A stretch of 64,000 bases of DNA from Rummeliibacillus pycnus (GTDB lineage: Bacteria; Bacillota; Bacilli; Bacillales_A; Planococcaceae), in the NCBI RefSeq assembly GCF_002884495.1, contig NZ_KZ614145.1:2928423-2992422 (forward strand), written 5' to 3'. Numbering within the stretch: the first letter of the stretch is position 1; each line of letters begins with the position of its first letter. Shown one piece after another: positions 6,504 through 17,089 of this stretch. The position numbers and the translations under genes were made by a program. The notes below the pieces were generated by a model, which had not been told where the DNA came from, ran no database searches, and saw nothing but the letters and a program-made list of their open reading frames with translations.

Positions 6504-7307
6504 GTGAAGCGAAAAGTATTCTATAGTGTACTTACTGTCATTATTGCGAGCTTTTTTCTTAATAATTGGTATGCAAATAACAAGAAGATGGGGCTACCAA
6601 TTGTAATACCATCTTATATTTCAACTTTAGCCGATGATAGTATGGAAATTACATTGTACTATGTGAAAGATCGTCATGATAAACGTACCCTTCAGAAGAT
6701 AACATTTGGAGATACTGATACAGCAGTTGAAGGAGATACCAGTCATTTTTTTGAAGAAAATACATCGAAATTACATACCATTGATACTTTTAACTATCAA
6801 ACACTAAATAGAGCAAGTTTTCATATATCGGCAGGTGAAATAGCGGATATTTATAAAAAGGACATATTAGCAAAGGATATTCAAGTTATATTATCTGATG
6901 GTACAAAGATACCGGCTAATATAAAACATTTTGAAATTTTAAAGACAAAAAAGGAAGAAAAGCTATCATTTATATCATCTGGAGGTTCTTCTGATGGAAC
7001 AGGATATACAAAGTTTAAGGCAAAACAGAATATGAATCTTACACTAATCAATATGCCCAAAGAGTTAAAGAAGTATTATGACGTGCAAGTGATGAAGTCC
7101 AATCAAAGAGTAGATCTACCGATCAAGTTGAACAAAGGGGAAACATTAAGTATTAATACAAAAATAAAAGGAAATATACCCTTTAGTTATGATGCCATTA
7201 TCCCTTTACTATCAGATAAAGATAGGGTTGGATTTATCTCTCTACTAAATAATTCAACTATTTCAGAGAAGGATATAGAAAATTTGGTGAAGGAGTATGG
7301 TCGATGA
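6504..7307 (+). CDS. Membrane-anchored extracellular protein, unknown function
   Basis: I do not recognise this 267-residue protein. A basic start followed by a hydrophobic segment (residues about 5-22) predicts a signal anchor or signal peptide with no lipobox. The rest is soluble, beta-rich and lysine-rich, so probably exported. It starts with GTG at 6504, six bases after a run of G (6492-6498) that can act as ribosome binding site. Its stop overlaps the next gene by four bases (ATGA), so the two are probably co-translated and may act together at the membrane. Confidence 0.7.
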   Translation: MKRKVFYSVLTVIIASFFLNNWYANNKKMGLPIVIPSYISTLADDSMEITLYYVKDRHDKRTLQKITFGDTDTAVEGDTSHFFEENTSKLHTIDTFNYQTLNRASFHISAGEIADIYKKDILAKDIQVILSDGTKIPANIKHFEILKTKKEEKLSFISSGGSSDGTGYTKFKAKQNMNLTLINMPKELKKYYDVQVMKSNQRVDLPIKLNKGETLSINTKIKGNIPFSYDAIIPLLSDKDRVGFISLLNNSTISEKDIENLVKEYGR

Positions 7308-14935: not shown

Positions 14936-16192
14936 ATGGGATATTACGATAATAATGATGAAACAAAAAGTCGTAGAAAAGGTGGTAGCAAGTCGGGCTA
15001 TTTCTTTAGTGGAGTTGTTGGAGTCATTGTCGGTGCATTACTTGTTTGGCTTTTATTACCTTCGATGGTAGGTTATTTGCCAAGTAGTTCAAATGTATCC
15101 AATACTGCAGCTACCGCAAACAAAACTGCAACACCACAACTTTCGACATCTATTTCGACCGATATAACGGATGCAGTGGAGAAAACAAAGGATGCAGTTG
15201 TAGGAATTACAAACATACAAGAAAGTCCAAATGATTTATGGGGTACATTTCCATTCCAAGATGGTGGCAGTAGTAATTCTTCGAACGAAAAAAATGGTAA
15301 ACAAGAAGTTGGCAGTGGCTCAGGTGTTATCTATAAAAAAGTGGGAGACAAAGCATACATTGTGACAAACAATCACGTTGTAGAAGGCGCTAAACAACTT
15401 GAAGTAACGTTCTCAGATGGCTCCAAAGAACAAGCAAAACTTGTGGGTACAGATATTTGGACTGATTTAGCTGTTATTTCAATTTCAAGCAAAAAAGTAA
15501 AAACCGTTGCAACATTTGGCGATTCAGATAAACTAAAACAAGGCGAGTCAGTTATTGCAATTGGTAACCCATTAGGAATGGATTTCTATGGATCCGTAAC
15601 AACTGGGGTTATCTCAGGAACTGACCGTACAGTACCAGTTGATTTAAATGGAGACGGTACTGAAGATTGGCAAGCTGAAGTTTTACAAACAGATGCGGCC
15701 ATCAACCCAGGTAATAGTGGTGGTGCTCTGATTAACTTAGCAGGACAAGTAATTGGCATTAACTCCATGAAAATTTCCGAATCAACAGTAGAAGGATTAG
15801 GTTTTGCTATTCCAATCGATACTGCGATTCCAGTTATTGATGAATTACAACGAACGGGTAAAGTAGAAAGACCTTCAATGGGAGTTGCACTAATTGACTT
15901 AACGGATGTTCCAGTTTATCACCAAAGAAATACACTTAAATTACCGGGCGAAGTAACATCTGGCGTTGTCATTAGCGAAGTTCTAAAAAATTCATCTGCT
16001 GCAAAAGCTGGTTTAGAAAAATACGATGTCATTGTCGAAATGGATGGCGAAAAAATTGATAATTCTATAGACCTACGTAAAATCCTTTATAACCAAAAGC
16101 ATGTAGGCGATCAAGTAAAAATCAAAGCTTATCGTGGCGGGGAAATAATTCAAAAAACCATTACCTTAGGCGATAGTACAAAAAATCAATAG
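14936..16192 (+). CDS. htrA: HtrA-family membrane serine protease (DegP/HtrC-like)
   Basis: Membrane-anchored quality-control protease acting outside the membrane. The 418-residue protein has a cytoplasmic N-terminus, one membrane helix (about 22-44), a low-complexity Ser/Thr linker, a trypsin-like domain with His (TNNHVVEGA), Asp (WTDLAVI) and Ser (NPGNSGGAL) of the triad, and a C-terminal PDZ domain (about 305-410). In B. subtilis the equivalent gene downstream of walJ is htrC (yycK/yyxA). It has its own control region after the wal terminator. Confidence 0.93.
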   Translation: MGYYDNNDETKSRRKGGSKSGYFFSGVVGVIVGALLVWLLLPSMVGYLPSSSNVSNTAATANKTATPQLSTSISTDITDAVEKTKDAVVGITNIQESPNDLWGTFPFQDGGSSNSSNEKNGKQEVGSGSGVIYKKVGDKAYIVTNNHVVEGAKQLEVTFSDGSKEQAKLVGTDIWTDLAVISISSKKVKTVATFGDSDKLKQGESVIAIGNPLGMDFYGSVTTGVISGTDRTVPVDLNGDGTEDWQAEVLQTDAAINPGNSGGALINLAGQVIGINSMKISESTVEGLGFAIPIDTAIPVIDELQRTGKVERPSMGVALIDLTDVPVYHQRNTLKLPGEVTSGVVISEVLKNSSAAKAGLEKYDVIVEMDGEKIDNSIDLRKILYNQKHVGDQVKIKAYRGGEIIQKTITLGDSTKNQ

Positions 16193-16230
16193 TGTGGATA
16201 AATAGTACAAAAAGATAAATTATACACAAA

Positions 16231-16270
16231 GCGAGTAAGGAAAAAAAGCCTATCTTTCCTACTCGCTTTT
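16231..16270 (+). terminator. htrA terminator
   Basis: GCGAGTAAGGA pairs with TCCTACTCGC with one bulged A, followed by TTTTCATTT. It lies about 40 bases after the htrA stop and among the DnaA boxes. Confidence 0.75.
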
Positions 16271-16355
16271 CATTTGTTACAATAGGTTGTGGATAACAAT
16301 AGAGAAAATGTGCATAAGTCTGTGGAAATCAAAGAGATCGAAAGGATGAAATATT

Positions 16356-16520
16356 TTGAAAATATATAGCTGTGAAACCCATATAGGACACGCTTTAGAT
16401 ATGTTTGTTGCAACGGAAAAAGAAGTTCCAATTATGGAAAAAGTAGAGGAGGAAGAAAAGTTATCCACAAAATGTAGTTATTGCGACGAGCAAGCGACAT
16501 ATATTGTGGCGAACAAATGA
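16356..16520 (+). CDS. Small CxxH/CxxC zinc-ribbon-type protein
   Basis: A 54-residue protein starting at TTG 16356 after AAAGGATG (16341-16348). It has CETH near residue 6 and CSYC at residues 40-43, the paired CxxH and CxxC that define the small family found between htrA and rlmH in many Bacilli; the four residues probably bind zinc. Function is unknown. A perfect DnaA box (16461-16469) lies within the coding sequence. rlmH follows after 89 bases. Confidence 0.85.
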   Translation: MKIYSCETHIGHALDMFVATEKEVPIMEKVEEEEKLSTKCSYCDEQATYIVANK

Positions 16521-16609
16521 GCGTACACAATATCTTGAAACGCCTGTGGATATGTGCATAACTTCTGTGGATAAAATGTTTGTAAATTAAATGTAAAGGT
16601 GGATAACCT

Positions 16610-17089
16610 GTGAGTATTACAATAATAAGCGTTGGGAAATTAAAAGAAAAGTATCTAAAAATGGGAATCGAAGAATATGCTAAACGTCTCAGTGGTTATA
16701 CAAAAATTGACCTCATTGAAGTTCCTGATGAAAAAGCTCCCGAACAACTCAGTGAAGCAGAGATGGAAATTGTCAAAAAGAAAGAGGGTGAACGTATCCT
16801 TGCTAAAATCACACCAGACCATTATGTGATCGCACTAGCCATCAATGGAAAAATGAGAAGTTCCGAGGATTTATCAAAAGACATTGAAAATCTTATGACA
16901 TACGGTCACAGTAAAATAGCCTTCGTTATTGGTGGTTCACTAGGATTGCATGATGATGTACTAAATCGTGCAGATGATAAATTGTCATTTGGGAAGATGA
17001 CTTTGCCTCACCAATTGATGAAGCTTGTTTTAGTGGAGCAGATTTATCGTAGCTTTCGAATTATGAAGGGTGAACCGTATCATAAGTAA
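16610..17089 (+). CDS. rlmH: 23S rRNA (pseudouridine1915-N3)-methyltransferase RlmH
   Basis: SPOUT-class methyltransferase modifying pseudouridine 1915 in helix 69 of 23S rRNA. The 159-residue protein shows the SAM-binding knot motifs [14 protein letters not shown] (about 103-116) and the C-terminal signature [26 protein letters not shown] ending in the conserved YHK (given here in part). Length is exactly typical. GTG start at 16610 after AAAGGTGG; the ribosome binding site overlaps a near-match DnaA box. Confidence 0.97.

Follow-up and report, generated by a model that had tools for sequence, protein, structure and literature searches.

A DnaA-box array between htrA and rlmH

The window, meaning the whole 64,000-nt stretch of Rummeliibacillus pycnus DNA analysed here, carries nine DnaA boxes within 414 bp (16193-16606), located between an htrA-like gene and rlmH, as determined by a motif scan allowing at most one mismatch. 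Four of these boxes are perfect, two are TTATGCACA and three are other one-mismatch sites. The original prediction had called for at least eight boxes, one of them inside a small CxxH/CxxC gene and another over the rlmH ribosome binding site. The count exceeds that minimum by one, and both placements hold: B5 at 16461 falls within the small gene, which belongs to the YyzF family, and the box at 16598-16606 overlaps the likely ribosome-binding site at 16595-16602. The features of the locus are given below; counts out of 80 refer to the family alignment described in the next section.

14936-16192, plus strand: htrA-like serine protease gene (degP_htrA_DO, 3.6e-85, under that model's cut-off)
16193-16201, minus strand: box B1, perfect TTATCCACA, abutting the htrA stop codon; consensus bases in 73-77 of 80 rows
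16220-16228, plus strand: box B2, TTATACACA, one mismatch; weakly kept (24-66 of 80 rows)
16230-16268, plus strand: imperfect inverted repeat with a T run after htrA, putative terminator suggested by the sequence
16275-16283, plus strand: putative extended -10 element (TG-T-TACAAT) of the yyzF-rlmH operon, suggested by the conserved TTTGtTAcAATaG
16288-16296, minus strand: box B3, perfect TTATCCACA; 74-77 of 80 rows
16309-16317, minus strand: box B4, TTATGCACA, 21 bp from B3; 72-74 of 80 rows except for a free fifth base
16356-16520, plus strand: yyzF, CxxH/CxxC protein of 54 amino acids (TIGR04129, 3.5e-19; PF14116 YyzF, 1.7e-16)
16461-16469, plus strand: box B5, perfect TTATCCACA within yyzF and in frame as TTA-TCC-ACA (Leu-Ser-Thr)
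16501-16533, plus strand: inverted repeat ATATTGTG...CACAATAT around the yyzF stop
16545-16561, minus strand: double box TTATGCACATATCCACA, 17 bp, the overlapping pair B7/B6
16545-16553, minus strand: box B6, ATATCCACA, one mismatch, downstream half of the double box; 70-80 of 80 rows
16553-16561, minus strand: box B7, TTATGCACA, forming the upstream half of the double box and sharing one base with B6
16566-16574, minus strand: box B8, perfect TTATCCACA, 13 bp from B7 and 21 bp from B6; 68-80 of 80 rows
16595-16602: likely rlmH ribosome-binding site AAAGGTGG, ahead of the GTG start at 16610
16598-16606, minus strand: box B9, TTATCCACC, one mismatch, overlapping the likely ribosome-binding site; 65-75 of 80 rows, a conservation that may be due in part to the ribosome-binding site itself
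16610-17089, plus strand: rlmH, 23S rRNA (pseudouridine1915-N3)-methyltransferase, the B. subtilis yydA (NF000985, 8.3e-78)

Just before B3, a conserved TTTGTTACAATAG looks like an extended -10 element, which would place the transcription start near 16290, within B3. Scanning 16100-16700 returned no sigma-70-like site (2.8 expected in shuffles) and no terminator, and for this reason both the promoter and the terminator listed above are given as putative. The inverted repeat around the yyzF stop folds with a median of -8.0 kcal/mol over the 80 rows; it is conserved, and its arms vary between genera in a partly matching way. Three Rfam matches between 15700 and 17300 all scored under the gathering score and were judged to be chance.

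The boxes share one register within the family

Eighty named loci with close relatives of RlmH were found. Because only 50 bases precede its rlmH, L044 was left out, and the window together with the other 79 loci makes up a set of 80 rows, which are related, so that row counts are not independent. The family name, Planococcaceae, was inferred from these named loci. A YyzF-type open reading frame is present in 80/80 rows, and boxes recur at about -420, -323, -302, -150, -57 and -44 relative to rlmH.

The register was scored with the strict pattern TTATNCACA, requiring B1 to lie 60-110 bp before B3 and each other box to lie within 3 bp of its position. All six strict boxes (B1, B3, B4, B5, B7 and B8) are found in 30 of the 80 rows, five in 36, four in 4 and three or fewer in 10. 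Thus, five or six of the six stand in one register in 66/80 rows, in agreement with the conservation originally predicted for this locus. Additionally, the strict B3 and B4 are separated by a step of 19-22 bp in 75/80 rows. Base by base, the alignment retains the consensus of B1, B3, B5, B6 and B8 in 68-80 of 80 rows, and the bases of B4 and B7 are likewise kept apart from variable fourth or fifth bases.

Loci of the Ureibacillus type carry about 140 bp of extra sequence before rlmH and nevertheless retain the inner steps of 21, 152, 93 and 13 (L028). In L028-L030, L032, L045, L051 and L078 the extra 130-140 bp lies between B8 and rlmH, in some cases with an added box near -43, and is possibly a local duplication. 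The average number of boxes is lower in Kurthia, Caryophanon and Metalysinibacillus, and B5 is absent in Solibacillus (0/3) and most Kurthia (1/5).

Synonymous codons are held fixed at the coding box

Box B5 lies in yyzF, where the DNA can be separated from the protein it encodes. The codons TTA-TCC-ACA occur in 66/80 rows, which is 66 of the 72 rows encoding Leu-Ser-Thr, and the expectation for this combination from rlmH codon usage is 1.7% (0.304 x 0.133 x 0.421). At the three B5 residues the same codon is used in a fraction of 0.96, 0.96 and 1.00 of rows; for the eight remaining conserved yyzF residues with 4- or 6-fold degeneracy the fraction is 0.47-0.80, a contrast drawn within one gene although the rows are related. 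Thus, the DNA itself is under selection at this box.

The array is the orthologue of a known B. subtilis cluster

The original prediction pointed to a DnaA-box cluster at B. subtilis yydA, and this link is borne out by the genes, which are the same (YyzF and RlmH; TIGR04129, PF14116 and NF000985). Since the small gene is yyzF, the yyzF-rlmH region matches the yyzF-yydA region described in PMC4447404. The array therefore corresponds by orthology to the yyzF-yydA (rlmH) cluster of B. subtilis, and its kind is already known. As in B. subtilis (Smith and Grossman 2015, PMC4447404), many boxes extend across yyzF up to rlmH, near oriC; the distance to oriC here is about 31 kb, as the proposed origin-proximal location requires. 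The family layout differs in its shared register and oriC-type double box, the B. subtilis cluster being known here from its published description. A different layout is found in Bacillus-like f11 loci, none of which is known to come from B. subtilis.

Published work suggests how such an array might act. Region 8 of B. subtilis, upstream of yydA and downstream of yyzF, contains 7 sites with an apparent Kd of 0.16 µM (ATP) or 0.33 µM (ADP) (PMC4447404, Table 1). These values are close to those of the dnaA-dnaN oriC region (0.16 and 0.30 µM, respectively; PMC4447404). In the same study DnaA "appears to directly repress" yyzF-yydD, and yyzF-yydABCD is named as directly regulated in a review (PMC8203912). 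Removal of six extra-oriC clusters from B. subtilis results in early initiation, which one re-introduced cluster partly relieves (PMC5295017, PMC13220808). Going by these accounts, DnaA binding, apparent repression and early initiation without all six clusters can be taken as established in B. subtilis; the corresponding binding and repression in R. pycnus, as well as the promoter site, would follow by analogy.

By title and abstract, the literature searched, with most subscription journals outside it, contained no account of a yyzF/rlmH cluster outside B. subtilis, nor of a comparable pair of boxes away from oriC. Conservation may be discussed in Okumura 2012 and Ishikawa 2007, both of which reportedly deal with the B. 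subtilis yyzF-yydA DnaA-box cluster. Four features appear to be new within the literature searched: the common register of the boxes, the selection acting on codons, the way the array is distributed over Bacilli, and the double box of oriC type.

A proposed operator that also holds DnaA

We consider it probable that the locus is a cis-acting DnaA-binding array, serving both as an operator through which DnaA represses yyzF-rlmH and as a reservoir of DnaA. DnaA would occupy the array cooperatively. B3 and B4 would then lie over the likely yyzF-rlmH transcription start, with B6-B9 covering the leader of rlmH and its ribosome-binding site; from these positions we propose that DnaA, once bound, represses the operon. 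With its high affinity, the array would also hold DnaA and leave less of it free. The results presented here fit repression and titration alike.

Distribution across Bacilli and distance from dnaA

The comparison across Bacillales called for by the original prediction was extended to 98 of 133 rlmH matches from other families, mainly one per genus plus extras, covering 71 genera and 38 families of the class. Successive 500-bp bins upstream of rlmH contain 150 (98 loci), 8 (96), 1 (88), 1 (78), 2 (77) and 1 (51) boxes, or 1.53, 0.08, 0.01, 0.01, 0.03 and 0.02 TTATNCACA per bin per locus. At least two boxes fall in the first bin in 29/71 genera and 17/38 families, with f31 (L183) scored as zero though three of its boxes sit just past 500 bp (-532 to -512). 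Several families have none: within 500 bp upstream of rlmH, TTATNCACA was found in 0/10 loci of f22, 0/4 of f3, 0/3 of f6, 0/4 of f7 and 0/3 of f30, and in no locus of further Bacilli families.

These data bear on the alternative that the array is a replication-timing element which titrates DnaA near oriC and is doubled soon after initiation, with effects on rlmH being incidental. We regard this as possible, though improbable as the main function. The location of the array agrees with it, as does the early initiation reported for B. subtilis, and among the matches listed rlmH lies 26.7-62.7 kb from dnaA in 76/81 family genomes with both genes on the same contig; in the other five of the 81, dnaA sits no more than 4 bases from the start of the contig, with rlmH close to its end. 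However, rlmH is also close to dnaA in families lacking boxes (28-58 kb where both are on the same contig). Because many Bacilli families have no boxes although rlmH is at this distance, the cluster is dispensable. Boxes also persist where rlmH has a distant position: in G271, G294, G304 and G284, rlmH is 231, 265, 208 and 404 kb from dnaA, and 1, 4, 2 and 2 boxes remain; G329 and G212 do not enter this comparison of distances. Such retention at 208-404 kb argues that linkage to the gene matters, and is compatible with titration too. As far as position can indicate, an operator tied to its gene accounts for the boxes in these four genomes no less well than a timer near the origin would. Nor is closeness to oriC required, because in this genome about 370-475 kb separates oriC from the clusters at tsaD-ydiF, ywlC and sda.

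By analogy with B. subtilis, a role in replication timing is nonetheless plausible in R. pycnus alongside the operator function that we favor. The reviews consulted leave it unsettled whether the B. subtilis clusters outside oriC work as timers, as operators or in both ways.

Two additional perfect boxes lie inside rlmH at +336 and +392 in G271, G294 and G304. At the level of loci, perfect boxes within rlmH were seen in the f4 loci L190, L222 and L223 (+336 and +392) and L152 (+392); for three of these four genomes the distance between rlmH and dnaA is 208-265 kb.

The rlmH double box resembles the oriC unwinding module

On the minus strand B7/B6 reads TTATGCACATATCCACA, with a step of 8 bp between its two boxes. 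In its dnaA-dnaN region, this genome contains TTATCCACAAATCCACA, followed by GGCC and then by CTA/TTA trios. The genome has exactly two matches to TTATNCACANATCCACA, one at the rlmH double box and one in the oriC unwinding region; there are no further occurrences at one mismatch and nine at two, compared with seven at up to two mismatches for the reversed control. In 100 family genomes, 104 exact copies of the 17-mer were found in 94 genomes, and none of the reversed control. Of these copies, 67 are upstream of rlmH (among the rlmH matches listed), 32 are downstream of dnaA and 5 are elsewhere. Three of the latter five lie on the same contig as dnaA at 27.7-30.0 kb, the usual rlmH distance, with no rlmH among the matches listed there.

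With the fifth base free and at most one mismatch, the 17-mer is found in 69/80 family rlmH rows and 17/21 oriCs. Other families have it, again at up to one mismatch, at 22/98 rlmH loci in 8/38 families. Control windows at least 600 bp upstream of rlmH yielded it, at up to two mismatches, in 1/1210; loci L090-L130 entered these control windows only. Caryophanon lacks the 17-mer in all three loci (0/3) even allowing one mismatch. In family f29, a second exact copy of the double box lies upstream of rlmH at a distance of 2.8-4.4 kb (G329:C1:3612724 and G233:C2:43070).

Among known systems, this pair comes close to the basal unwinding system (BUS) of oriC, which combines DnaA boxes 6/7 with DnaA-trios (Richardson 2019, Pelliciari 2021). 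A BUS has tandem DnaA boxes (one near-consensus, at most 3 bp apart), a GC-rich spacer of about 4 bp and at least three DnaA-trios within 16 bp. The likeness lies in the 17-bp overlapping pair with its 8-bp step: the rlmH double box is a tandem pair of this kind with a one-base overlap, as at the genome's own oriC. The spacer is GGC at this locus and varies among relatives, many of which are not GC-rich. Unlike the BUS, the rlmH array in this genome has no DnaA-trio run and does not lie between dnaA and dnaN; the longest NTN run at its double box is 1, below the required three.

Trio runs of at least three beside the 17-mer were also counted in the relatives. CTA-type runs occur at 1/69 family rlmH, 0/22 other-family rlmH and 13/21 oriC copies; under the loosest rule, NTN, the values are 10/69, 14/22 and 20/21, respectively, with an expectation of about 43% from shuffled rlmH flanks (49 flanks). 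Thus, the genome analysed here and its family have the box pair without the trio run. Outside the family, the absence of trios depends on the rule, because 14/22 copies have NTN runs and 0/22 have CTA-type runs.

One tentative explanation is that B7/B6 nucleates an oriC-type DnaA assembly that cannot open DNA without trios, serving as a decoy or as a sensor for assembly-competent DnaA. The confinement of the 17-mer to oriC and rlmH in this genome favors this, as do the 99/104 exact family copies found at one or the other site and the scarcity of trio runs at family rlmH loci relative to oriC. Several observations weigh against it. Tight binding alone could preserve double boxes, rlmH loci do not generally share the GC-rich 4-nt spacer found at oriC, and outside the family most rlmH copies do have runs under the NTN rule. 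Additionally, the exact 17-mer was placed at rlmH in 67/100 family genomes (among the matches listed) and in none of the Caryophanon loci, and Bacillus-like f11 loci differ in layout.

A bolder reading makes the array an origin mimic: most family members examined, along with eight further Bacilli families, have a second copy of the strand-opening box pair at rlmH that lacks the CTA-type trio run of oriC. DnaA would then build an oriC-type starter complex without melting, repress rlmH and compete with oriC for assembly-competent DnaA; we consider this unlikely as a whole. The register, the codon-held coding box, the relatives with distant rlmH and the unwinding-module look-alike together offer several clean routes for telling repression, titration and the nucleation of oligomers apart.

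Comparison with datA and DARS

Like E. coli datA, the rlmH array is an extra-oriC DnaA-box locus, and one expected to lower active DnaA. A datA- or DARS-like site that changes the nucleotide state of DnaA would share its multi-box geometry and its position near oriC, but is very improbable here. A review reports that datA, DARS, Hda and IHF are all absent from B. subtilis, and ATP- and ADP-DnaA differ only about two-fold in apparent affinity at the B. subtilis orthologue. The rlmH array differs from datA in its genes; no IHF dependence is known for it, and nothing points to ATP hydrolysis.

DnaA-box clusters elsewhere in the genome

The window as a whole is barely enriched, because its 32 sites at up to one mismatch (24.1 expected) were equalled in 5/100 shuffles; 9 of the 32 are concentrated in the 414 bp. 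Genome-wide, 79 perfect boxes are present in 3,851,193 bp (one contig), compared with 59 for the reversed pattern, or about one per 49 kb on both strands together. The original prediction expected a perfect 9-mer once per 130 kb per strand, which is incorrect; uniform sequence gives about 262 kb per strand. In the whole-genome scan that it proposed, only three loci have at least four perfect boxes per 414 bp: the dnaA upstream region (7), sda (4) and rlmH (4). Equal density at many random loci, which would have spoken against the prediction, was not seen, and random placement of the 79 boxes gave four in 414 bp in 0/20,000 runs. Chance or compositional clustering is thus scarcely credible as an explanation of the array: the surplus over the reversed control is modest, but the placements, the retention of boxes within the family and the selection on synonymous codons all contradict it.

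Nine genome stretches around box groups were inspected for neighbouring genes. Clusters are present at the B. subtilis binding loci dnaA-dnaN, jag-trmE, ywlC, tsaD(gcp) and sda (PMC4447404, Table 1), and a ywcI-vpr cluster was not found among the nine stretches. The tsaD(gcp) cluster adjoins an ABC-F gene, taken as ydiF by position. Two further small box groups (L086:6496-6667 and L088:6340-6650), near a PH-domain gene and in a LysR-type gene, have no B. subtilis counterpart to our knowledge. The sda cluster (L081:6647-7404; G000:C1:2438646-2439403; Sda, PF08970) is beside an aminotransferase gene, not yqeG as in B. subtilis. At the tsaD-ydiF cluster (L089:6700-6860; L250-L279), 28/30 family loci have at least two TTATNCACA within 700 bp after tsaD. 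Upstream of ywlC/Sua5 (L082:6492-6946; L280-L309), at least two are found within 700 bp in 22/30 loci, and this cluster also has 21-bp steps, with one-mismatch boxes at 6599, 6620 and 6641 in L082.
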